Made by a program: the position numbers and the translations under genes
Part shown: positions 27,874-38,218 of the stretch, in pieces
Position numbering within the stretch: position 1 is the stretch's first letter
How the letters are laid out: each line of letters begins with the position of its first letter
Assembly: GCF_016623495.1 (NCBI RefSeq)
Contig: NZ_JAEHHL010000013.1
Span: 1-62,345 of the forward strand
Direction of reading: 5' to 3'
Source: Thermohalobaculum xanthum
GTDB taxonomy: Bacteria > Pseudomonadota > Alphaproteobacteria > Rhodobacterales > Rhodobacteraceae
Length of the DNA: 62,345 nucleotides
The notes under the pieces: generated by a model
What the model was told of the DNA's origin: nothing
What the model saw: the letters and a program-made list of their open reading frames with translations, nothing else
The model's database searches: none

Positions 27874-28854
27874 TCAGAGGCGCACCACCTGCGCCCGGCC
27901 GCCCGCCTTCGCCAGGTCCGCGGCGACCGAGGCGACCGCGAGGTCCTGCAGACCCACCCCGGTTCCGTCGAACAGCGTGATCTCGGCCTCCGAGTTTCGC
28001 CCCGGATGCGCGCCGTTGATCACCGCGCCGATGGGCGTGATGTCGGCTTCGGCCTTCAGCCCCTGCGCGACCGCATGCTGAGCCTCGCCGATGCTGATCG
28101 ACTGCGCGACCTCGTCGGTGAAGACCGTGGCGGCGGCGACCAGCGCGGCGTCGACCTCCTGCTTGCCCTTGGTGTCGGTGCCCATGCAGGCGATATGCGT
28201 GCCGGGCTTGATCCAGTCCCTCATCATCAGCGGCTCGAAGGCCGAGGTGATGGTGATGATCACGTCCGCCTCGGCGCCCAGCCGCTCGCGCTCGACGGCC
28301 TCGAAGGGCAGGCCGATCTCGGCCGCGACCTTGCCCAGCGCCGGCAGCATCTCGGGATGGAAGTTCCAGGCGACGACCTTCTCGAAGCTCCGCTGCTCGG
28401 CCGCCGCGCGCAGCTGGAAGGCCGACTGGTGGCCGGCGCCGACCATGCCCAGGACCCGGGCGTCGGGCCGGGCGAGATGCGCGATCGAGACCGAGCTTGC
28501 CGCAGCCGTCCGCACCGCCGTGAGATAGTTGCCGCCGACCAGCGCCTTGAGCCGCCCGGTGTCGGGGTCGAACAGGAACACCGTGGACTGGTGGTTGGTG
28601 AGCCCCTTCGCGGCGTTGCCCGGCCAGTAGCCGCCCGATTTCAGTCCCAGCGCCAGCCCCGCCCGGTCGAAGCCGGACTTGAAGCCGTAAAGCGCGTCGG
28701 CATAGCCGATCGCCTCGCGGATGACGGGGAAGTTGTAGGCATCGCCCCGGGCCATTGCAGCGAAGACGGCCTCGACCGCGTCGAAGGCGTCCTTGCGGCC
28801 GACGAGCTCGCGGCAGGCATCTTCCGAGACCACGAGAATTCCGTCATCGGTCAT
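27874..28854 (-). CDS. bhcD: iminosuccinate reductase (beta-hydroxyaspartate cycle)
   Basis: 326 residues of the ornithine cyclodeaminase/mu-crystallin fold. In the beta-hydroxyaspartate cycle BhcD reduces iminosuccinate to L-aspartate with NADH, regenerating the amino donor. Visible: LYGFKSGFDRAGLALGLKSG, the substrate loop GNYLTAVRTAAASSV, the Rossmann loop LGMVGAGHQSAFQLRAA, and ITSAFEPLMMRDWI. The start at 28854 (MTDDGILVV) follows a ggac-rich stretch; a further 56 open codons upstream cross the intergenic hairpins. The exact assignment (rather than a generic cyclodeaminase) rests on the bhcABC neighbours. Confidence 0.92.
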   Translation of the reverse strand: MTDDGILVVSEDACRELVGRKDAFDAVEAVFAAMARGDAYNFPVIREAIGYADALYGFKSGFDRAGLALGLKSGGYWPGNAAKGLTNHQSTVFLFDPDTGRLKALVGGNYLTAVRTAAASSVSIAHLARPDARVLGMVGAGHQSAFQLRAAAEQRSFEKVVAWNFHPEMLPALGKVAAEIGLPFEAVERERLGAEADVIITITSAFEPLMMRDWIKPGTHIACMGTDTKGKQEVDAALVAAATVFTDEVAQSISIGEAQHAVAQGLKAEADITPIGAVINGAHPGRNSEAEITLFDGTGVGLQDLAVASVAADLAKAGGRAQVVRL

Positions 28855-28885
28855 GGCGTGTCCTTCATCTTGTCGGGGGCAAAAG

Positions 28886-28932
28886 GGCGGGAGCGCGACG
28901 CCCTCCCGCCTTCCCCTCCCCGCGCGGGGAAG
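28886..28932 (-). terminator. tandem hairpins in the bhcC-bhcD gap
   Basis: The 100-base gap between bhcC and bhcD holds two stems: CCTTCCCC (28909-28916) with GGGGAAGG (28926-28933), and GGCGGGAG (28886-28893) with CTCCCGCC (28903-28910). They share two bases, so they are partly exclusive. On the minus strand the second is followed by CTTTT, which is terminator-like. The other bhc gaps are only 10 bases. It could damp bhcD expression or stabilise the upstream mRNA. Confidence 0.5.
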
Positions 28933-28954
28933 GGCGATGTCGTTCCGGCTGGCC

Positions 28955-30118
28955 TCAGTAGGCCTTTCCGCGCGCGCTGACCGGCCAGACGGTCTCGACC
29001 TTGCCGTTGCGAACGCCGACATACCAGTCGTGCACGTTGCAGGTCGGGTCGCAGTGGCCGGGAACGAGGCGAAGCTTCTCGTTGACCTCGAGCACGCCCT
29101 TGGGGTCCTCGATCACGCCGTGCTCGTCCGAGCACTTGATGTATTTCACGTCGTCGCGGCCATAGACGAAGGGCAGGCCGGAATCGACCGACTGCGCCTT
29201 CAGCCCGGCATCGCAGATCGCCTTGTCGGCCTTGGCGTGGCTCATCACGCTGGTCAGGATGAACAGCGCGTTCTCCCACTCGCCCTGGTCGATGCGGCGG
29301 CCGTCCTTGTCGTGGATGCGGCCGTAATCGGCGTCCATGAAGGCGTAGGAGCCGCACTGGAGCTCGTTGTAGACGCCCGACTCGCTCTCGAAATAATAGC
29401 TGCCGGTGCCCCCGCCCGAGACCAGTTCGGGCTTGAGCCCTGCCGTCTCGAGCGCTGCGACCGCGTCCTTCACCATGGCAATGGCGGCGTCGAGCTTGGC
29501 CTTGCGCTCCTCGTAGGAGTCGATGTGCTGCATCGCGCCCTGGTAGGCCTGGATGCCGGCGAATTTCAGCCCCGGGGCCGCGTCGATCGCCTTGGCGATC
29601 TTGACCACGTCAGCGCTGGTGGTCACGCCGCAGCGCCCGGCGCCGCAGTCGATCTCGACGAAGCACTCGATGGTCGTGCCATGCTTTTCGGCGGCTTTGC
29701 TCAGTTCGGCCACGTTGTCGGCGTCGTCGACGCAGACGATGATGCGGCTGCCCAGCTTGGGCAGGCGGGCCAGCCGGTCGATCTTGGCCGGGTCGCGCAC
29801 CTGGTTCGACACCAGCACGTCCTTGATGCCGCCGCGCACGAAGACCTCGGCCTCGGACACCTTCTGGCAGCACACGCCGATGGCGCCGCCGAGCCGCTCC
29901 TGCAGCTTCAGCACGTCGACCGACTTGTGCATCTTGCCATGCGCCCGGTGGCGCATGCCGTGCGCCCTGGCATATTCACCCATCTTCACGATGTTGCGCT
30001 CGAGCGCGTCGAGATCGAGGATCAGGCAGGGCGTCTGGATGTCGGCCTCGTCCATGCCGGGCAGGGCGGGGATGTCGTAGCCGACCTCGAGCCCCTCGAG
30101 TTTCGCGGGTGCGTTCAT
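28955..30118 (-). CDS. bhcC: beta-hydroxyaspartate aldolase
   Basis: 387 residues, the length of characterised BhcC. It belongs to the fold-type III PLP D-threonine/D-3-hydroxyaspartate aldolase family and joins glyoxylate and glycine into (2R,3S)-beta-hydroxyaspartate. Landmarks are DIQTPCLILDLDALERNI, the PLP-Lys region HRAHGKMHKS, EIDCGAGRCGV, the YQGAMQHI segment, SGGGTGSYYFE, and the C-terminal metal site with RLVPGHCDPTCNVHDW (His/Cys). The ATG is ten bases after the bhcB stop with gaggac upstream. Central enzyme of glyoxylate assimilation by this cycle. Confidence 0.95.
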   Translation of the reverse strand: MNAPAKLEGLEVGYDIPALPGMDEADIQTPCLILDLDALERNIVKMGEYARAHGMRHRAHGKMHKSVDVLKLQERLGGAIGVCCQKVSEAEVFVRGGIKDVLVSNQVRDPAKIDRLARLPKLGSRIIVCVDDADNVAELSKAAEKHGTTIECFVEIDCGAGRCGVTTSADVVKIAKAIDAAPGLKFAGIQAYQGAMQHIDSYEERKAKLDAAIAMVKDAVAALETAGLKPELVSGGGTGSYYFESESGVYNELQCGSYAFMDADYGRIHDKDGRRIDQGEWENALFILTSVMSHAKADKAICDAGLKAQSVDSGLPFVYGRDDVKYIKCSDEHGVIEDPKGVLEVNEKLRLVPGHCDPTCNVHDWYVGVRNGKVETVWPVSARGKAY

Positions 30119-30128
30119 GGCGTCCTCC

Positions 30129-31082
30129 TCAGCCCTCGATCCAGGGCAGCTTGTCCAGGTCTACGTTTCCGCCGGTGATGATGACGCCGACGCGCTTGCC
30201 CGCGAACACCTCCCGGTTCTTGAGAATGGTGGCGAGCGGCACGGCGCTCGACGCCTCCATCACGATCTTCATGCGCGCCCAGGTCAGCTTCGTCGCGTCG
30301 ACGATCTCCTGCTCGCTGGCGGTCAGGATGTCGGTGACATGGTTCGACACGAAATGCCAGGTCAACTCCTTCAGCGGCACCTTGAGCCCGTCGGCCACCG
30401 TGACCGGCGCGTCGTCGGCGATGATTTGGCCCGCCTTGAAGCTTCGGAAGGCGTCGTCGGCCTGCTCGGGCTCGGCGGCGTAGATCTTCACCTGCGGCGC
30501 GATCGTCGACAGCGTCAGGCAGGTGCCCGACACCATCCCCCCGCCGCCGATGGGCGCGATCACCGCGTCGAGCCCCGGCACCTGCTCGTTCAGTTCCAGC
30601 GAGCAAGTCCCCTGGCCCGCGATCACGCGCGGGTCGTTGTAGGGATGCACGAACTCGGCCCCGGTGCGGGCCTCCACCTCGGCAAAGACCGCCTCGCGCG
30701 ACGAGGTCGAGGGCTCGCATTCGGTGATCTGGCCGCCATAGCCGCGCACCGCGTCCTTCTTGGCCTGCGGCGCGGTGCGCGGCATCACCACGTGGCAGGG
30801 AATGCCCCGCCGCCCCGCCGCATAGCTCAGCGACAGCGCATGGTTGCCCGAGGAATGGGTCGCGACGCCCTTCGCGGCATTCTCGTCCGAGAGGCCGAAG
30901 ACCGCGTTGCATGCTCCGCGCACCTTGAAGGCGCCGGCCTTCTGGAAGTTCTCGCACTTGAAGAACAGCTCGGCCCCCGTGAGCGCGTTGAGAAAGCTCG
31001 AGGTCAGCACCGGCGTGCGGTGGATGTAGGGGGCCGCGCGTCGTGCGGCCGCCTCGACGTCGGCGAAGGTCGGGATCTGCAT
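30129..31082 (-). CDS. bhcB: beta-hydroxyaspartate dehydratase
   Basis: 317 residues of the serine racemase/threo-3-hydroxyaspartate dehydratase type (PLP fold type II). It removes water from beta-hydroxyaspartate to give iminosuccinate, the BhcD substrate. The Schiff-base Lys 53 is in GAFKVRGACNA, the substrate loop is THSSGNHALSL, and the glycine loop is APIGGGGMVSG. The start has gaggagg upstream and lies ten bases after the bhcA stop. Similar in fold to the dehydratase at 10651-11634, but the operon fixes its role. Confidence 0.94.
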   Translation of the reverse strand: MQIPTFADVEAAARRAAPYIHRTPVLTSSFLNALTGAELFFKCENFQKAGAFKVRGACNAVFGLSDENAAKGVATHSSGNHALSLSYAAGRRGIPCHVVMPRTAPQAKKDAVRGYGGQITECEPSTSSREAVFAEVEARTGAEFVHPYNDPRVIAGQGTCSLELNEQVPGLDAVIAPIGGGGMVSGTCLTLSTIAPQVKIYAAEPEQADDAFRSFKAGQIIADDAPVTVADGLKVPLKELTWHFVSNHVTDILTASEQEIVDATKLTWARMKIVMEASSAVPLATILKNREVFAGKRVGVIITGGNVDLDKLPWIEG

Positions 31083-31092
31083 GCTCGCCTCC

Positions 31093-32304
31093 TCAGGCCG
31101 CGGCCTTGCGCGTGGCGCCGGCGGTCGCGCGATAGTATTCCTGCGCGGCCGCGACGCCCGATCCCAGCCGGATCGGGTAACCCAGATCCTTCATCGCCAT
31201 CTCGATCGTGGCAATGCCTGAAAGCGCCATCACGTCCGTGAGCGAGCCCAGATGCCCGATCCGGAAGGCCTTGCCCGACATCGGGCCCAGCCCCACCCCG
31301 AACGAGACGCCATAGGTGTCGAAGGCGTGGTTGGTCAGGAGATTGCTGTCGAAGCCCTCGGGCACGTAGACGCAGCTGACCGTGTCGGAGTAGAGGTCCG
31401 GGCTCTTGGCGCAGAGCGAGAGGCCCCACGCCCGGATCGCCTCGCGCACGCCCTCGGCGATGCGGTGGTGGCGGGCGAAGACCTCGTCGAGCCCCTCGTC
31501 CAGCAGCATCTTCAGGCTCTCGCGCAGGCCGTACATGATCTGCAGGGGCGGCGTGTAGGGAAAGCCGCCTTTGGCGTTCGCGCCCCCCATGTCACGGAAA
31601 TCGAAGAAGCAGCGCGGGCAGGTCGCGGTCCTGGTCGCCTCCATCGCGCGGCGCGAGACGCCGACGATGGCCATGCCGGTGGCCAGCATGAAGCCCTTCT
31701 GGCTGCCGGTGACGGCGAGGTCGACGCCCCATTCGTCCATCCGGAAATCCATCGAGGCCAGCGACGAGACGCAGTCGACATAGAGCATCGCCGGATGACC
31801 GGCCGCGTCCATCGCCCGGCGCACCGCGCCGACATCCGAGACGACGCCCGTCGCGGTCTCGTTATGCGTGACGAGGACGGCCTTGATCGCGTGGTCCGTG
31901 TCGGCGGCCAGCCGTTCGCCGAACCGATCGGCCGGCGCGCCACAGCCCCATTCGCACTCGATCACCTCGACATCGAGGTTGTGGCGCTGGCACATGTCGA
32001 TCCAGCGGTGCGAGAACATGCCGTAGCGCGCGACCAGCACCTTGTCGCCGGGCGAGAGCGTGTTGGTGATCGCCGCCTCCCAGCCGCCGGTGCCGCTGGC
32101 GGGAAAGGTGATGACCTCGCCAGTCGCAGTCTTGAACACCTTCCTGAGATCGCCCAGCAGCGGGCCCAGAAGCTCGACGAAATCGGGCGCGCGGTGGTCG
32201 GTGGTCTGGATGCTCATGGCATAGCGCAGGCGGTCCGGGATGTTCGTGGGCCCCGGGATGAAGACCGGGTTCTGGCCGCTGAAGACAGGCAGGTTGGCAG
32301 TCAT
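31093..32304 (-). CDS. bhcA: L-aspartate-glyoxylate aminotransferase
   Basis: 403 residues of class V aminotransferase fold. BhcA moves the amino group of aspartate to glyoxylate, giving oxaloacetate (the cycle product) and glycine (BhcC substrate). Visible: FIPGPTNIPDRLRYAM, the PLP-ring stacking region SGTGGWEAAITNTL, THNETATGVVSDV, the Asp of MLYVDCVSSL, and the Schiff-base Lys 203 in VTGSQKGFML. The start at 32304 (MTANLPVFSG) has gaggagg at suitable distance upstream; an ATG 19 codons earlier is less likely. First gene of the minus-strand bhcABCD operon. Confidence 0.95.
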   Translation of the reverse strand: MTANLPVFSGQNPVFIPGPTNIPDRLRYAMSIQTTDHRAPDFVELLGPLLGDLRKVFKTATGEVITFPASGTGGWEAAITNTLSPGDKVLVARYGMFSHRWIDMCQRHNLDVEVIECEWGCGAPADRFGERLAADTDHAIKAVLVTHNETATGVVSDVGAVRRAMDAAGHPAMLYVDCVSSLASMDFRMDEWGVDLAVTGSQKGFMLATGMAIVGVSRRAMEATRTATCPRCFFDFRDMGGANAKGGFPYTPPLQIMYGLRESLKMLLDEGLDEVFARHHRIAEGVREAIRAWGLSLCAKSPDLYSDTVSCVYVPEGFDSNLLTNHAFDTYGVSFGVGLGPMSGKAFRIGHLGSLTDVMALSGIATIEMAMKDLGYPIRLGSGVAAAQEYYRATAGATRKAAA

Positions 32305-32506
32305 GGCGTATCCTCCTCGCCGGGTTGCAGGGACCATGCGCGCCATCGATCCGGTTTGCAATTTTTCTGAAAAAGTTTTCCAAAATGCCGGTGAAAAATG
32401 CCAAATACATTGTATGATAACGGAAATTCATTTTTCCATTCCCGTGTCGCGGGGCCGGGCTGGAAAATGAATCTCGTCCGGCAGGGCGGAAACGAAGGGG
32501 ATTGGC
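32305..32506. promoter_or_regulatory. divergent bhcA/bhcR control region with IclR-type palindromes
   Basis: A markedly AT-rich 202-base region. Palindromes: TTTTTC/GAAAAA around 32368; ATACA/TGTAT (32405-32415), which on the minus strand also contains a TACAAT -10-like hexamer; and an IclR-like GGAAA...TTTCC at 32422-32437. TTCATTTTTCCA (32427-32438) is mirrored, with one base difference, by TGGAAAATGAA (32461-32471). AAAATGCC is repeated directly at 32382 and 32395. E. coli IclR binds a TGGAAAT/ATTTCCA-type site, so these are plausible BhcR operators serving both directions. Confidence 0.65.
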
Positions 32507-33343
32507 ATGGCGGAACGACAGGTGCGGCGGCGGGCGCGCGGGCGGCCGCGGACGGTCGAGCCCGAGGCGCAGGGCGCCACCGTCAAGGCGCTCGACCGCG
32601 CGGTTGTGCTGCTGCGCGCCCTGGCGCGCGGGGGCAAGGCCACGCTCTCGGACCTGGCCGCGCAGACCGAGATGCCGCCCTCCTCGGCCCACCGGCTCCT
32701 TGCCACGCTCGCCGCGCATGGGCTCGTCGAGTTCGCCGACGCCACCCAGGAATGGATGATCGGGGTCGAGGCGTTCCGCATCGGCTCGGCCTTCGTGCAG
32801 CGCTCGAACCTGGTCGATGTCAGCCGCGAGGTGATGCGCCGGCTGGTCGACGAGACGGGCGAGACCGCGAACCTCGCCATCGCCGATGACGGCGAGGTGG
32901 TGTTTCTCAGCCAGGTCGACACGCAGAACCCGATCCGCGCCTTCTTCCGCGCGGGCACGCGGGTGCACATGCATTCCTCGGGCATCGGCAAGGCGCTGCT
33001 CTCCGAGTTCGCCCCGCGCCGGGTCGAGCAGATCGTGGCGCAGCGCGGCCTGCCGGCCTTCACCGCCAAGACGCTGTCGACCCCCGACGCGCTGCGCGCC
33101 GATCTCGAGGAGACGCGGCGCCGCGGCTGGTCGCTCGACGACGAGGAACGCTTCGACGGCATGCGCTGCATCGCCGCGCCGATCTTCAACGCCTATGGCG
33201 AGCCGGTGGCCGGGGTCTCGATCTCGGGCCCCGCGGTGCGCTTCGGCGACCGCGCGCTGGCAGGCCTCGGCGCCCGGGTGCGCCGCGCGGCCGACGATAT
33301 CACCCGGCTGACCGGCGGCGCGCCGCCCCCCGGCCACGGCTGA
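32507..33343 (+). CDS. bhcR: IclR-family regulator of the beta-hydroxyaspartate cycle
   Basis: 278 residues. A basic N-terminus (RRRARGRPR) precedes the winged helix (LARGGKATLSDLAAQTEMPP, then SSAHRLLATLAAHGLVEF). The IclR effector domain follows (TGETANLAIADDGEVVFLSQ, AFFRAGTRVHMHSSGIGKAL, GMRCIAAPIFNAYGEPVAGV). The divergent position relative to bhcA matches the known arrangement in Paracoccus denitrificans, where BhcR responds to glyoxylate. The ATG has gaagggg upstream. Convergent with the ureide genes, 15 bases apart. Confidence 0.93.
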   Translation: MAERQVRRRARGRPRTVEPEAQGATVKALDRAVVLLRALARGGKATLSDLAAQTEMPPSSAHRLLATLAAHGLVEFADATQEWMIGVEAFRIGSAFVQRSNLVDVSREVMRRLVDETGETANLAIADDGEVVFLSQVDTQNPIRAFFRAGTRVHMHSSGIGKALLSEFAPRRVEQIVAQRGLPAFTAKTLSTPDALRADLEETRRRGWSLDDEERFDGMRCIAAPIFNAYGEPVAGVSISGPAVRFGDRALAGLGARVRRAADDITRLTGGAPPPGHG

Positions 33344-33358
33344 TCCGCGGGCTGCGGC

Positions 33359-33871
33359 TCAGGCGTCGTCGGTGCAGATCAGCCAGGGGCGGGCGAAGTG
33401 GTGCTCCTGAAGGTTGTCGCCGGGGCCGGTCCGGTCGACGATCAGGAAGTCCTGCGGCCGGTCCAGCGGCGTCAGCACGCCATGCCAGACGTTGCGGCGA
33501 TAGTTCACGCCCTGCGCGCCGTTGGTCAGGAAGGCGCGCGGCCGCCCGGGCCGTCCGCCCTCGTCGGCCGCGACCACGACAAGGAAGGGCTCGGCCGACA
33601 GCGGCATGAAGGCCTGGCTTCCCAGCGGGTGGCGCTCGACGAGGTCCAGCTGCAACGGCAGCCGGTAGGGCTCGGCCCGGGCCAGGCTGATGGCGACGCG
33701 CCCGCCCTCGCCCGTCACCTCGGGCAGGGCGCGCGCCGCCCAGCGCTGCGCCATCCCGGCGTTGAACGCGAAATCGGGCGGGCCCGCGATCTCCAGCACC
33801 TCGCCGAAGGGCGCGAAGGCGTCCGCCGTCAGGGGCAGGATCGCGATCCGCTCGTCGACCCGCGCGCTCAT
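33359..33871 (-). CDS. allA: ureidoglycolate lyase
   Basis: 170 residues, family length. It splits (S)-ureidoglycolate into glyoxylate and urea, the last step of allantoin breakdown. Visible: LTADAFAPFGEVLEI, LVERHPLGSQAFMPL, FLVVVA, NYRRNVWHGVLTPL and the C-terminal FARPWL, with His residues of the metal/active site in ERHPLGS and VWHGVL. The start at 33871 overlaps the allE stop (ATGA), and the longer opening upstream lies inside allE. Its product glyoxylate is the substrate of the adjacent bhc cluster. Confidence 0.93.
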   Translation of the reverse strand: MSARVDERIAILPLTADAFAPFGEVLEIAGPPDFAFNAGMAQRWAARALPEVTGEGGRVAISLARAEPYRLPLQLDLVERHPLGSQAFMPLSAEPFLVVVAADEGGRPGRPRAFLTNGAQGVNYRRNVWHGVLTPLDRPQDFLIVDRTGPGDNLQEHHFARPWLICTDDA

Positions 33872-34698
33872 GCCCCCGGCCTCAGCTTGGGGTGGCGGTT
33901 CACGTCCTTGTAGAGGAGGTAGCGAAACCTGCCGGGCCCTCCGGCATAGCAGGCCTGCGGGCAGAAGGCGCGCAGCCACATGAAATCGCCGGCCTCGACC
34001 TCGACCCAGTCGCGGTTGAGCCGGTAGGCGCCCTTGCCCTCGAGCACATAGAGCCCGTGCTCCATCACATGCGTCTCGAGGAAGGGAATGCAGGCGCCGG
34101 GCTCCAGCGTGACGATGGTGACATGCATGTCGTGGCTAAGATCGTCGGGGTCGACGAAGCGGGTCGTGGCCCAGGCGCCGTTCGTGCCCGGCATCGGTGA
34201 GGGCGCGACCGCGGCGTCGCTGGTGACCAGCGGCTTCGGCACGGGCAGGCCCTCGACCGGCTCGTAGGCCTTGCGGATCCAGTGGAACCGCGCCGGCGCC
34301 GCGCCGTCGTTTCTCAGCCGCCACTCGGCGCCCGGGGGGATATAGGCGAAACCACCCGGCTCGAGCCGGTGCTGCGTGCCGTCGAGGCTGAGGCTGACCG
34401 TGCCGTCCACGACGAACAGCGCGCCCTCGGCGCCCGGATCGGGCTCGGGCCGGTCGCTGCCGCCGCCGGGCAGCACCTCGAGGATGTATTGCGAGAAGGT
34501 CTCGGCAAACCCCGTCATCGGCCGGGCGATGATCCAGGCGCGGGTTCCGTCCCAGTGCGGCAGGCGACTGGTGACGATGTCGCGCATCACGCCCTTGGGC
34601 AGGACGGCATAGCTCTCGGTGAACACCGCCCGGCCGGTCAGCAGCTCGGCCTGGCCGGGATGGCCGCCGCTCGGGGCGTAGTAGGTCCTGTCGCTCAT
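33868..34698 (-). CDS. allE: (S)-ureidoglycine aminohydrolase
   Basis: 276 residues, a two-cupin protein. It hydrolyses ureidoglycine to ureidoglycolate and ammonia. The first cupin shows QYILEVLPGGGSDRPEP and GTVSLSLDGTQHRL; the second has the Mn-binding pattern in PFLETHVMEHGLYVLEGKG and WLRAFCPQACYAGG. The opening YYAPSGGHPGQAELLTGRAV and PHWDGTRAWIIARPMTGF are characteristic of the family. The start at 34698 (MSDRTYY) is the family N-terminus. Translationally coupled to allA. Confidence 0.93.
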   Translation of the reverse strand: MSDRTYYAPSGGHPGQAELLTGRAVFTESYAVLPKGVMRDIVTSRLPHWDGTRAWIIARPMTGFAETFSQYILEVLPGGGSDRPEPDPGAEGALFVVDGTVSLSLDGTQHRLEPGGFAYIPPGAEWRLRNDGAAPARFHWIRKAYEPVEGLPVPKPLVTSDAAVAPSPMPGTNGAWATTRFVDPDDLSHDMHVTIVTLEPGACIPFLETHVMEHGLYVLEGKGAYRLNRDWVEVEAGDFMWLRAFCPQACYAGGPGRFRYLLYKDVNRHPKLRPGA

Positions 34699-34741
34699 GC
34701 TCGCTCCGTGTTGCTGGCTCGCGTCGGTGGGGGTGTGGTCC

Positions 34742-35662
34742 TCAGGCATCGAGGTTCTCCGCTGGGTGCTCGCGGTGCCAGTGCTCCGCAATGTCGATGC
34801 GCCGGGCGAACCAGACGCCCTCGTGCCCGGCGGCGTAGTCGAGGAACCGCGCCAGCGCGGCCGCCCGGCCCGGCCGCCCGGCAAGGCGGCAGTGCAGCCC
34901 GACCGACAGCATCTTGGGCGCGCCCGCCTCGCCCTCGGCGTAGAGCACGTCGAAGCTGTCCCTGAGATAGCTGAAGAACTGGTCGCCCGAGTTGAAGCCC
35001 TGCGGCGTGGCAAAGCGCATGTCGTTGGTGTCGAGCGTGTAGGGCACGATCAGGAACGGCCCCTTGGGCCCCCGCACCCAGTAGGGCAGGTCGTCGGCGT
35101 AGTTGTCCGCGCAATAGGCGAAGCCGCCCTCCTCCATCACCAGATCGAGCGTGTTCTCCGAGCAGCGCCCGGTATACCAGCCCCGTGGCCGGGCGCCGGT
35201 GACCTCGGTGTGGATGCGGATCGCCTCGTCCATGTGCGCCTTTTCCTCGGCGCGGCTGAAGTCGCGGTACTCGATCCATTTCAGCCCGTGGCTCGCGATC
35301 TCCCAGTCTGCCTCGCGCATCGCGGCCACCTGCTCGGGGCTGCGCGCCAGCGCCGTGGCGACGCCGTAGACCGTGACCGGGACGCGGCGCGCCGTCAGCG
35401 TCCGCCACAGCCGCCAGAACCCGGCGCGGGCGCCGTACTCGTAGATCGATTCCATGTTCATGTGGCGCATGCCCGGCCAGGCCTGCGCCCCCACGATCTC
35501 GGACAGGAACGCCTCCGAGGCTGGGTCGCCATGCAGGATGCAGTTCTCGCCGCCCTCCTCGTAGTTGACGACCACCTGCAGCGCGATGCGCGCGCCCCCG
35601 GGCCAGCGCGGGTCGGGCGGCGTCCGGCCGTAACCTCTCAGGTCGCGGGGGTAGCGTGTCAT
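34742..35662 (-). CDS. puuE: PuuE-type allantoinase (polysaccharide deacetylase fold)
   Basis: 306 residues. PuuE allantoinases open the hydantoin ring of allantoin to allantoate without being related to the amidohydrolase-type AllB. Signatures: RDLRGYGRTPPDPRWPGGAR, VNYEEGGENCILHGD, EASHGLKWIEYRDFSRAEEK-type segment (here beginning IASHGLKWIEY), GWYTGRCSENTLDLV and PYTLDTNDMRFATPQGFN. The start at 35662 has aaggaga upstream (reading the minus strand). The gene lies 43 bases upstream of the allE start and probably shares its transcript. Confidence 0.93.
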   Translation of the reverse strand: MTRYPRDLRGYGRTPPDPRWPGGARIALQVVVNYEEGGENCILHGDPASEAFLSEIVGAQAWPGMRHMNMESIYEYGARAGFWRLWRTLTARRVPVTVYGVATALARSPEQVAAMREADWEIASHGLKWIEYRDFSRAEEKAHMDEAIRIHTEVTGARPRGWYTGRCSENTLDLVMEEGGFAYCADNYADDLPYWVRGPKGPFLIVPYTLDTNDMRFATPQGFNSGDQFFSYLRDSFDVLYAEGEAGAPKMLSVGLHCRLAGRPGRAAALARFLDYAAGHEGVWFARRIDIAEHWHREHPAENLDA

Positions 35663-35693
35663 GGCGGTCTCCTTCTGCGTTCGGGCGCGGGGC

Positions 35694-36557
35694 TCAGTCG
35701 AACTCGCCCAGGGCCTCGTGCTGCGTCTCGATCCATTCCAGGTGCTCGCGCCCGGCCTTGCCCGACCGGCGCATGGTCGCGACCGCCAGGAGCCGCAGTA
35801 CCGCCAGCACGCCGGCATAGGAGTCGAGCACATGCGGGTTCTCGACCGGGCAGGTGATGGTCCAGCGCGCCAGCGCCGGCATGCCGCGCGCCGAGGGGTC
35901 GGTGATCAGCAACACCCGCACCCCGCGCCCGTCCAGCGCCTTCAGCGCACGCGGCAGCGCGCCCACGACCCGGCGTACGCCTACCACCACGACCACGTCC
36001 TCGGGGCCGAAATCGGCCAGCCCCTCGGCCAGGGTCTCGCCCGGGCCGGGCAGGAGCCGGGTGTCGGGCCGGAACTGGACGAACTGCCAGCGCGCATAGG
36101 CGGCGAAGTAATGGCTGTTGCGAAAGCCCAGGAAGCCCAGCCGCCGCGCTCCCGACAGGGCGCCGGCGATCTCGTCGAGGAGCGCGGGCGAGACCTGCTC
36201 GAGCCCGTGGCGCAGCGCCGCCATCTCGGCCTCGGCGAACTCGGCGATCAGTGCGTCTGCGCCCTTGCCGGGCCGCGCCTCGCCCTCGCGCGGCGCGAGG
36301 AACAGCGGCGAGCCCCAGTTGCGCGCCTCGCGCGCCGCCAGCCGCATCTCGTCATAGCTCTCGAACCCCGCGCGCTGGACGAACCGCGTCACCGTCGAGT
36401 TCGAGACCCCGACCAGCCGCGCCAGTTCCGAGGCCGGGTACATGCTGACCTCGCCCGGTGATTCGAGGATGAAATCCGCCACCTGCCGCTCGCGGCCGCT
36501 CAGCCCGTCATAGGCCTGGTGGATGATGTCGACCAGCGATTTCAGAGGCTTGTTCAT
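35694..36557 (-). CDS. RpiR-family (HTH plus SIS domain) regulator of the ureide block
   Basis: 287 residues. The N-terminal HTH_6 domain shows LSGRERQVADFILESPGEV and SELARLVGVSNSTVTRFVQR (recognition helix). The C-terminal SIS domain (RRLGFLGFRNSHYFAAY, then DVVVVVGVRRVVGALPRAL) normally binds a phosphorylated sugar or similar ligand. The start at 36557 (MNKPLKS) is chosen as the family N-terminus; a start 14 codons earlier is open. It lies at the head of the puuE-allE-allA group, divergent from the permease gene, with a 9-base inverted repeat between them. The ligand is not known; a ureide is inferred. Confidence 0.88.
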   Translation of the reverse strand: MNKPLKSLVDIIHQAYDGLSGRERQVADFILESPGEVSMYPASELARLVGVSNSTVTRFVQRAGFESYDEMRLAAREARNWGSPLFLAPREGEARPGKGADALIAEFAEAEMAALRHGLEQVSPALLDEIAGALSGARRLGFLGFRNSHYFAAYARWQFVQFRPDTRLLPGPGETLAEGLADFGPEDVVVVVGVRRVVGALPRALKALDGRGVRVLLITDPSARGMPALARWTITCPVENPHVLDSYAGVLAVLRLLAVATMRRSGKAGREHLEWIETQHEALGEFD

Positions 36558-36616
36558 GTCTGGCCCTCGGGTCGGCGGCAGGTTTCGGTCGCGTCGCATG
36601 GTGAGATTGGAATGAC

Positions 36617-36645
36617 ATTTCCAAATATATTGACATTTTGGAAAT
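36617..36645. promoter_or_regulatory. inverted repeat operator between the RpiR and permease genes
   Basis: Perfect 9-base inverted repeat ATTTCCAAA (36617-36625) and TTTGGAAAT (36637-36645), with an 11-base spacer containing most of a perfect TTGACA hexamer (36630-36635) pointed at the permease. The whole element is AT-rich in a GC-rich genome. Its position 60 bases from the regulator start and 92 bases before the permease ATG makes it the likely RpiR binding site. No convincing -10 was found. Confidence 0.7.
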
Positions 36646-36736
36646 TTATTTGCAACCTTTTCACATCACGCCATTGACCCACGGGGCAGCCAGAAGCGCA
36701 GCAAGCCGCCGTCGCGCCGCCCACAGAGAGGCCGAG

Positions 36737-38218
36737 ATGACGCACAACCACTATGACATCACTTCCAAGGATGGCGCCCTCTGGAACGAGGACCTCGCGC
36801 CGCTGCCGCCCGAGCGTCGCCGCTGGGGCGCCTTCGAGATCTTCAACGTCTGGAACAACGACATACAGAGCCTGTTCGGCTACACGCTCGCGGCCTCGCT
36901 GTTCATCAGCTACGGGCTCAACGGCTGGTGGACCCTCACGGCGATCGTGCTCGCCGGCGCCTTCGTCATGTGGCTGGTGAACCTCACCGGCAGGCCCTCG
37001 GTCAAGTATGGCGTGCCCTACCCGGTCATGGCGCGCGCCGCGATGGGGGTCGAGGGCGCCAAGTTCCCGGCGCTGGTGCGCGGCATCGTCGCGATCTTCT
37101 GGTATGGCGTGCAGACCTATTTCGCCTCGACCGCCGTGGCGCTCCTGATCCGCTCGGTGCTGGGCATCGAGGGCGGCGCCGAGTTCCTCGGCATGACCGG
37201 TGTCGGCTGGGTCTCGTACATCATCGTCTGCGTGTTCCAGCTGGGCCTCTTCATGATGGGCATCGACTGGGTCGGGCGCTTCCTCAACTGGGCGGGGCCC
37301 TTCGTCTATGCGGTGATGATCGCGCTGATGCTGGCGATCTGGTGGAAGGCCGGCAACGGCCTGCTGGCCGAGCTTGGCAACATCTTCCAGGGCGGTGCCA
37401 GCACCGATCCGCGCGGACCGGTTGCCGCCTTCTTCGCCATCACCGGCACGATGATCGCCTATTTCGCCGCCGTCGTGATCAACTTCGGCGACTTCTCGCG
37501 CTTCGTGAAGACCGAAGCGCAGATGCGGCGCGGCAATTTCTGGGGTCTGCCGGTGTCGATGGCCTTCTTCTCGTTCATCGCGCTCTTCATCACCGCGGGC
37601 ACCGTCGTGCTGTTCGGCGAGCGGCTGACCAACCCGGCCGATATCGTCGAGCGCGTTGACAACATCTGGCTCACCGTGATCGCGGCGATCACCTTCTTCG
37701 CGGCGACGGTCGGCATCAACCTGGTCGCGAACTTCATCCCGCCGGCCTATGACCTCGCGAACCTCGCGCCCTCGAAGATCAGCGCGAAGACCGGCGGGAT
37801 CATGACCGCGGTGATCGCCTTCTTCATCGGCGCGCTGTGGGTCTCGCTGATCTCCGAGATAGGCATCGCCGGCTTCGTCGACACGCTGGGTGCCTTCCTC
37901 GCGCCGCTCTACGGCATCCTGGTGGCGGACTACTACCTGATCCGCAAGCAGAAGGTCGAGCTGCAGGACCTGTTCTCGTCCAGCCCCGAGGGCGCCTATC
38001 ACTACAACGCCGGCTGGAACCGCATTGCCATCGCCGCCTTCGGCATCTCGGCGGTGTTCTCGGTCGCCACGGTCTGGGTGCCGGCGCTGAGCGATCTGTC
38101 GGGCTTCGGCTGGGTGATCGGCGCCGTGCTGGGCGGCACGCTCCACGTGGTGTTGATGCGCCGCGCCGGCCATGCCGTGACCGCGGCGGCGACTGCGGCG
38201 GGCTCGTCCAGCTTCTGA
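36737..38218 (+). CDS. NCS1-family permease, probable allantoin transporter
   Basis: 493 residues with about twelve membrane helices. The NCS1 hallmarks are NEDLAPLPPERRRWGAFEIF near the N-terminus, FNVWNNDIQSLFGY, GRPSVKYGVPYPVMARAAMG, GIVAIFWYGVQTYF, and GDFSRFVKT in the loop after helix 8. NCS1 proteins bring in purine, pyrimidine or ureide compounds with H+ or Na+. The allantoin assignment comes from the neighbours. The start at 36737 (MTHNHYDITS) has agagaggccgag upstream; an earlier in-frame ATG at 36638 overlaps the operator. Followed by a strong terminator. Confidence 0.88.
   Translation: MTHNHYDITSKDGALWNEDLAPLPPERRRWGAFEIFNVWNNDIQSLFGYTLAASLFISYGLNGWWTLTAIVLAGAFVMWLVNLTGRPSVKYGVPYPVMARAAMGVEGAKFPALVRGIVAIFWYGVQTYFASTAVALLIRSVLGIEGGAEFLGMTGVGWVSYIIVCVFQLGLFMMGIDWVGRFLNWAGPFVYAVMIALMLAIWWKAGNGLLAELGNIFQGGASTDPRGPVAAFFAITGTMIAYFAAVVINFGDFSRFVKTEAQMRRGNFWGLPVSMAFFSFIALFITAGTVVLFGERLTNPADIVERVDNIWLTVIAAITFFAATVGINLVANFIPPAYDLANLAPSKISAKTGGIMTAVIAFFIGALWVSLISEIGIAGFVDTLGAFLAPLYGILVADYYLIRKQKVELQDLFSSSPEGAYHYNAGWNRIAIAAFGISAVFSVATVWVPALSDLSGFGWVIGAVLGGTLHVVLMRRAGHAVTAAATAAGSSSF

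Follow-up and report, generated by a model that had tools for sequence, protein, structure and literature searches.

Two convergent operons in Thermohalobaculum xanthum predicted to lead from allantoin to oxaloacetate, and the recurrent linkage of purine and beta-hydroxyaspartate cycle genes in Rhodobacterales

In the genome of Thermohalobaculum xanthum (Rhodobacteraceae; assembly GCF_016623495.1, 4.05 Mb, 99.94% complete), the 62,345-bp stretch of contig NZ_JAEHHL010000013.1 that we analysed, referred to below as the window, carries between positions 27,874 and 38,218 an island of two convergent operons, each with its own regulator: the bhc genes of the beta-hydroxyaspartate cycle and a set of genes of ureide catabolism. 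We consider it probable (about 0.78) that the products of both operons jointly lead from allantoin to oxaloacetate, and that the island exemplifies an arrangement found repeatedly in Rhodobacterales, where the cycle often forms the last module of purine catabolism. The original prediction, made from the DNA letters of the window, had described the two blocks as one metabolic unit; the predicted route and the recurrent linkage of its halves support this in part, whereas shared regulation seems unlikely, the cycle does not need the ammonia released by AllE, and the restriction to ureides is too narrow.

Gene identities were established by comparing NCBIfam and Pfam profile scores with the curated cut-offs. 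All four enzymes of the cycle exceed them, and their genes lie on the minus strand: bhcD for iminosuccinate reductase (27874..28854, likely start 28854; NF045643, 594 bits, cut-off 500), bhcC for 3-hydroxy-D-aspartate aldolase (28955..30118; NF045642, 783 bits, cut-off 690), bhcB for beta-hydroxyaspartate dehydratase (30129..31082; NF045641, 596 bits, cut-off 550) and bhcA for aspartate-glyoxylate aminotransferase (31093..32304, likely start 32304; NF045640, 727 bits, cut-off 650). The solved structure nearest to BhcC is 6qkb (730 bits over residues 1-387). The IclR-type regulator gene bhcR (32507..33343, plus strand; NF045644, 374 bits, cut-off 350) is divergent from bhcA, with an operator-like site, judged by its sequence, in between. 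The second operon, again on the minus strand, starts with the gene of an RpiR-type regulator (35694..36557, likely start 36557), whose product combines an RpiR-type helix-turn-helix and a SIS domain, both over the Pfam cut-offs (PF01418, 49 bits; PF01380, 28 bits). It continues with puuE for allantoinase (34742..35662, likely start 35662; equivalog TIGR03212, 545 bits, cut-off 424.6), allE for an (S)-ureidoglycine aminohydrolase that probably belongs to the bifunctional allantoicase class (UGLYAH2, NF040771; 33868..34698, likely start 34698), and allA for ureidoglycolate lyase (33359..33871, likely start 33871; NF009932, 188 bits, cut-off 160; PF04115, 184 bits). This operon is tight, with gaps of 31 bases between rpiR and puuE and 43 bases between puuE and allE, and an overlap of 4 bases between allE and allA. 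On the far side of rpiR lies ncs1 (36737..38218, plus strand, likely start 36737; PF02133, 253 bits), an NCS1 permease gene to which we assign no substrate. All the genes that had been named at the outset are present at their coordinates, each confirmed by NCBIfam or Pfam. The spacing of 15 bases between bhcR, which ends at 33343, and the stop codon of allA at 33359 was also given correctly, in a wording that hid the convergence of the blocks. The same island with the same flanks occurs on a contig of Limibaculum sediminis FT325 (locus L002).

From this gene content the following route may be proposed. PuuE would open allantoin to allantoate, AllE would carry allantoate to ureidoglycolate, and AllA would split ureidoglycolate into glyoxylate and urea; BhcA to BhcD would then combine two glyoxylates into oxaloacetate with no loss of CO2, the aspartate amino group being recycled. 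BhcR would sense glyoxylate and turn on the second half once the first half delivers it, and the RpiR regulator would control the first, ureide half. In Rhodobacterales the cycle would thus take the place held by glyoxylate carboligase in E. coli and Pseudomonas. The earlier claim that the gene set spans the way from allantoin to oxaloacetate holds by family membership, since the allantoinase, ureidoglycine aminohydrolase and ureidoglycolate lyase genes all exceed family cut-offs, AllA doing so for a subfamily model only (it is over NF009932 and below all seven narrower ureidoglycolate-lyase equivalog models listed). The urate oxidase gene puuD is found on another contig of the same genome, beside a second, more distant gene of the AllA-like family PF04115 (contig C12, 264193-264657, within locus L109; 118 bits).

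The allantoate step, which the original prediction left undiscussed, may be covered by the class to which AllE belongs. The protein is over the cut-offs (in brackets) of all four listed models: NF008373 at 515 bits (445), NF008376 at 503 (338), NF040771 at 487 (350) and TIGR03214 at 303 (200). The family name of NF040771 reads 'bifunctional allantoicase/(S)-ureidoglycine aminohydrolase', and NF008373 is the plain (S)-ureidoglycine aminohydrolase model; E. coli AllE, used as a control, fails both of them (150 and 131 bits, respectively). The closest solved chain is 1sq4, a 'glyoxylate-induced protein' (457 bits), with E. coli ylbA (1rc6) far lower at 119 bits, and NCBI annotation gives the bifunctional name to the AllE encoded at or near bhcR on plasmids of Leisingera, Alloyangia and Pseudosulfitobacter. 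The AllE of the island is therefore probably of the bifunctional allantoicase class, its activity being read from the NCBIfam family name, and as it passes the bifunctional model a separate allC may be unnecessary. On the strength of this class assignment we rejected a gap at the allantoate step as a fatal flaw of the route. The allantoicase family PF03561 had no match in the window genome, a result of little weight because no control genome gave one either. Outside the island the genome encodes two proteins over the cut-off of TIGR01879, which belong to the AllC superfamily, one near preA and a dihydropyrimidinase gene in a pyrimidine cluster and the other adjoining TRAP and nitrilase-like genes. 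They were rejected as AllC itself (equivalog scores of 215 and 269 against a cut-off of 597.75), but each is over the cut-off of one or more broad 'allantoate amidohydrolase' subfamily models, which leaves room for a role in this step.

No glyoxylate carboligase (Gcl) was found in the window genome, where the best match reaches 348 bits against a cut-off of 711, and the glycerate route is left without its entry enzyme because none passes; the island is accordingly not a ureide cluster of the Gcl/glycerate type known from E. coli and Pseudomonas. In a sample of 390 genomes of the order, with three candidates scored per genome among the 20 rows listed, none had a Gcl match at E <= 1e-180, the E. 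coli control being positive. The beta-hydroxyaspartate cycle is the only predicted route of net glyoxylate assimilation that we found, and it is not the sole sink. The avoidance of the glycerate route that had been proposed is supported by the missing Gcl. A malate synthase G makes bhc one possible sink among others. The suggestion that ammonia from AllE supports the amino pool had to be dropped: by its established stoichiometry the cycle restores the aspartate that donates the amino group, and so does not need this ammonia.

Recurrence in other genomes supports the view that the two halves belong together. BhcC is over its cut-off in 225 of the 390 genomes of the order sample. From the best-scoring BhcC matches listed, 66 genomes, one per genus and T. 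xanthum included, were picked by hand, and distances were taken between start coordinates for the best BhcC place of each genome only. allA was found in all 66, and in 29 of them it lies within 15 kb of bhcC (the window included), against about 0.5 expected by chance; the binomial value of 8e-44 is, the genomes being related, merely a sign of strength. On this basis chance adjacency of allA and bhcC was rejected, and the linkage across genera lies above chance. For contrast, one glcD match at E <= 1e-110 was present in 65 of the 66 genomes, in none of them over the curated cut-off, and the best glcD-like gene lies within 15 kb of bhcC in 0 of these 65 (Fisher value against the allA count 7e-11, with rows that are not independent). 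Adjacency confined to this one genome, which had been named as grounds for abandoning the idea, is not what we observe, as ureide/bhc linkage occurs in many genera and in differing architectures.

A finer view is given by named loci, i.e., the best 80 of at least 585 BhcC relatives, 55 of which extend for 8 kb or more on each side of bhcC. Among these 55, one or more of allA, allE and puuE occur in 24 loci, at least two in 21 and all three in seven. In a wider search for neighbour genes, by tblastn (E <= 1e-15, at least 35% of the query) over flanks of no more than 10 kb each, purine or ureide genes stand beside bhc in 34 loci, in 33 of these by two or more genes, and glcDEF in four (three of the Rhizobium group and one Hyphomicrobium). 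No locus has both, for which the chance of zero overlap is 0.018. Clustering of the neighbours without preselected genes led to the same families: after bhcABCDR the labelled families met most often were uraH (22 loci), NCS2 (21), puuD (18), puuE (17), allE (16), allA (14), guaD (13) and xdhA (12), with glcD, glcE and glcF at four each. An unlabelled neighbour family of 835 aa (22 loci) looks like a spurious open reading frame, as in the one member inspected, in L071, most of it faces xdhA from the opposite strand. The original prediction of ureides feeding the cycle is supported in that ureide genes recur by bhc and too narrow in that the upstream purine genes belong to the association as well. 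Architectures vary: allA faces bhcR in the window, elsewhere allE faces bhcR or allA-puuE faces bhcD, and in many Paracoccus genes for NCS2, guaD, uraH, puuD and xdh come after bhcD in the same orientation. On a quick BhcBCD tree of 56 rows with architecture labels assigned by hand, the minimum number of changes is 14 for the ureide label, 11 for the wider purine label and 18 for the architecture, counts that are blind to gain versus loss; the arrangement of the window is common only to L002 among these rows.

Individual records, ten of them picked by hand from the 60 listed of 123 matches (five purine-linked, three glycolate-linked and two neither), illustrate how far the association extends. 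Plasmid NZ_CP081096 of Leisingera caerulea S216 holds in one stretch modABC, the bifunctional allE, bhcR-bhcABCD, NCS2, allA, puuE, uraH, puuD and xdhAB, and Alloyangia pacifica NZ_CP022191 brings together xdhABC, guaD, allE, bhc, NCS2, allA, puuE and puuD. In Pseudosulfitobacter sp. DSM 107133, xdhABC, guaD and allE lie upstream and an NCS1 permease gene sits between bhcC and bhcD; in Paracoccus ferrooxidans CP038202 a purine permease gene follows bhcD after 39 bases, then 8-oxoguanine deaminase, uraH and, farther away, xdhABC. In Paracoccus denitrificans HAMBI_2443, tblastn placed homologues of NCS2, an amidohydrolase (deaminase), uraH and puuD directly 3' of bhcABCD on the same strand, with no match to allA, allE or puuE within the 31-kb stretch. 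Glycolate-oxidase genes adjoin bhc in Rhizobium sophoriradicis, Sinorhizobium meliloti Rm41 and Methylorubrum extorquens, and neither purine nor glycolate genes are listed beside bhc on the plasmids of Limimaricola variabilis and Phaeobacter gallaeciensis. The occurrence of the same pairing in so many relatives suggests that the cycle also salvages purine carbon. It is possible, although we put this forward tentatively, that in Rhodobacterales this is its chief task, that bhc has either stayed with xdh-puuD-uraH-puuE-allE-allA sets or joined them repeatedly, and that the use of glycolate is secondary or lineage-specific, glcDEF beside bhc being found mainly in Hyphomicrobiales/Rhizobiales; the P. 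denitrificans bhc operon may then read through into the purine permease, deaminase, uraH and puuD genes.

Several observations weigh against a joint allantoin-to-oxaloacetate route. Its support is genomic: it draws on gene content, families, gene order, recurrence and the lack of a Gcl over cut-off, from which we infer enzyme activities, flux and induction. allA is not within 15 kb of bhcC in 37 of the 66 genera (one at 15.8 kb, seven farther away on the same contig and 29 on another contig of a draft), and 21 of the 55 loci have no purine gene in the flanks covered. On the tree, the four rows nearest to the window and L002 (L014, L050, L058 and L051) are unlinked; the set of eight rows holding the window also includes the linked L047, a pattern that fits repeated joining or repeated loss. 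Furthermore, allA is nearly universal where no BhcC exceeds the cut-off (47 of 52 genomes, of which 20 have no match and 32 weak matches, with 98 further matchless genomes outside this count). The ureide pathway therefore does not require bhc, and since allA is common with or without it, linkage and not co-occurrence carries the signal. AllE scores higher on the plain model NF008373 than on the bifunctional NF040771. The NCS1 permease is under both allantoin-permease cut-offs of NCBIfam (253 against 620 and 220 against 800 bits), so that the families do not assign it to allantoin, and its closest solved kin is the hydantoin permease Mhp1 (82 bits). No strong BhcR-type site is found at the ureide operon. 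Finally, malate synthase G (1178 bits, cut-off 565) is a possible alternative taker of glyoxylate, and the glycolate oxidase of this genome, of which GlcE and GlcF exceed their cut-offs and GlcD does not, could supply most of it. With both present, glycolate is a second possible source, bhc may serve it too, and the cycle is not the sole possible sink.

The malate synthase leads to the alternative that the ureide operon serves nitrogen acquisition only, that most of its glyoxylate is burned or else condensed through malate synthase G, and that bhc only clears a toxic excess. Besides the enzyme itself, the frequency of allA in genomes without bhc speaks for it, as other sinks must therefore exist there. 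However, malate synthase consumes acetyl-CoA, and glyoxylate alone gives no net assimilation by this enzyme; the missing Gcl in the window genome and the recurrent linkage of ureide genes with bhc also speak against it. We regard this alternative as rather unlikely.

The cycle is described as the way in which marine Proteobacteria use algal glycolate, and it has been used in plant and plastic-monomer engineering. One may thus suppose that it serves glycolate in T. xanthum as well, the ureide genes being its neighbours by chance or through a general clustering of catabolic genes. The glcDEF genes of the window genome and the glcD-like genes of almost all sampled bhc genomes (below the curated cut-off throughout) would be compatible with this supposition, as would the position of glcDEF beside bhc in Rhizobiaceae and Methylorubrum. 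The distances, however, point the other way: it is allA that stands beside bhc in close to half of the genera, glcD-like genes do not, and purine genes head the neighbour clustering, so that we find a purely glycolate-serving cycle improbable. For a strain with glycolate-oxidase genes but without a hydroxyaspartate aldolase, glycolate is described in the available part of PMC7574528 as usable for energy only.

The regulation of the island seems to follow its division into two operons. In 68 bhcR-bhcA intervals we fitted a palindrome resembling TGAAA-N5-TTTCA; 26 of the intervals have exact half-sites and 67 a site of more than 4 bits. In the window, a site of this bhcA-bhcR promoter type at 32368..32382 scores 20.9 bits, the best of all positions (the next best reaches 12.2 bits), and is likely the BhcR operator. 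Across the 80 loci, the bhc promoter accounts for 74 of the 87 sites of at least 13 bits, and a puuE gene for one. The 181-bp interval between rpiR and ncs1 holds a pair of palindromic sites (36608..36653), with 11.2 bits at 36639 (rank 3 in the window) and 10.0 bits at 36608 (rank 5). Two separate sites of at least 10 bits arose in 0 of 3000 shuffles of this interval, and the pair is present in L002 too. The best single-site score was reached in 38 of 3000 shuffles of the interval and in 153 of 3000 of its 65-bp AT-rich core, so that a lone site there is weak evidence. One member of the pair reads, by eye, GGAA-N6-TTCC, the motif that the accessible part of PMC2597717 places upstream of genes regulated with the RpiR-family protein IolR. 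The pair is likely to represent RpiR operators rather than BhcR sites, and each half of the island seems to be under its own regulator, the two being coupled through glyoxylate. In the regulatory sense the single unit that had been claimed gains no support, as the operons are convergent, the only strong BhcR-type site lies at the bhc promoter, and the sites near the ureide promoter are weaker and more like RpiR operators. That BhcR directly controls both operons as one glyoxylate regulon could draw on the pair of sites, its absence from the shuffles and its conservation in L002, but it appears quite improbable and was rejected as the leading reading, as the ureide-side sites are at least 9 bits weaker than the bhc site, a single one is matched by shuffling, one fits the IolR motif, the rpiR gene is next door and strong sites in other loci are almost confined to the bhc promoter.

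The coupling of ureide catabolism to a glyoxylate assimilation module is a known logic, with E. coli and Pseudomonas as examples. The E. coli allantoin regulon (NC_000913.3; allA-allR-gcl-hyi-glxR-allW-allB-ybbY-glxK / allE-allC-allD) likewise clusters ureide genes with glyoxylate-assimilating ones and has an IclR-family glyoxylate sensor, AllR. Its acceptor, in contrast, is the CO2-releasing Gcl/glycerate route; it includes an AllC, and its AllE stays under the cut-off of the bifunctional model. Among tested systems the gcl cluster PA1498-PA1502 of P. aeruginosa comes nearest, a dedicated glyoxylate pathway tied to allantoin which, according to the part of PMC12694930 at hand, is allantoin-induced and required for growth on allantoin as sole carbon source; it differs from our island in relying on Gcl chemistry and in having been tested experimentally, and the word 'hydroxyaspartate' is absent from the text of that paper. 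The P. denitrificans cycle has the same four enzymes, BhcR and divergent bhcR/bhcA order, and differs in having been studied for glycolate and glyoxylate (PMC11323563, in part).

According to the original prediction, the cycle is not known to have been described as an acceptor for ureides. The introduction of PMC11323563, in the portion available, already mentions that glyoxylate can derive from purine bases and allantoin. The gene-level link was not met in the literature searched: no paper joined 'hydroxyaspartate' and 'ureidoglycolate', in a search that did not cover the 2019 Nature paper on the cycle; the available parts of PMC11323563 and PMC12214560 make no mention of purine neighbours of bhc genes, the 2019 paper, which may show them, being outside the comparison; in the accessible text of PMC11166783, which holds 'hydroxyaspartate', allantoin is met in the reference list only; and PMC11698098, which treats SAR11 purine catabolism to glyoxylate, does not contain 'hydroxyaspartate'. 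New here are the predicted role of the carbon-conserving beta-hydroxyaspartate cycle as this module, a link that is widespread in Rhodobacterales and spans the whole purine pathway, and the purine gene homologues that adjoin bhc in the model organism P. denitrificans itself.

Should the cycle also regularly take up carbon from purines, its ecological input would change, with purines and ureides released by other microbes entering it, and the natural signal of BhcR might often be purine-derived. The saving of carbon on a nitrogen-rich substrate would then become directly testable in P. denitrificans, for which bhc mutants and a bhc promoter reporter exist (PMC11323563, in part).

Some minor features of the bhc loci may also be recorded. 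Contig L010, from a Spirulina subsalsa assembly, has bhcB and bhcC genes closely resembling those of Alphaproteobacteria (BhcC 87%) and is most likely a contaminant. An NCS1 permease gene lies inside the bhc operon, between bhcC and bhcD, in L016, L047 and L113 (Pseudosulfitobacter); L016 and L047 sit in different parts of the BhcBCD tree, and L113 is outside it. An unlabelled family of GAPDH-like dehydrogenases occurs near bhc in 12 of the 55 loci, directly 3' of bhcD at L057:12270-13253 and L098:14191-15168; we assign no role to it. On the 32-kb conjugative plasmid pP75_g of Phaeobacter gallaeciensis (L114), bhcB and bhcC are listed without bhcA, bhcD and bhcR in the 25 kb shown, where the gene table is maybe incomplete. 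Their neighbours there encode an FAD-binding oxidoreductase, RidA proteins and a TRAP transporter, and the two genes are perhaps a hydroxyaspartate-using module separate from the cycle.

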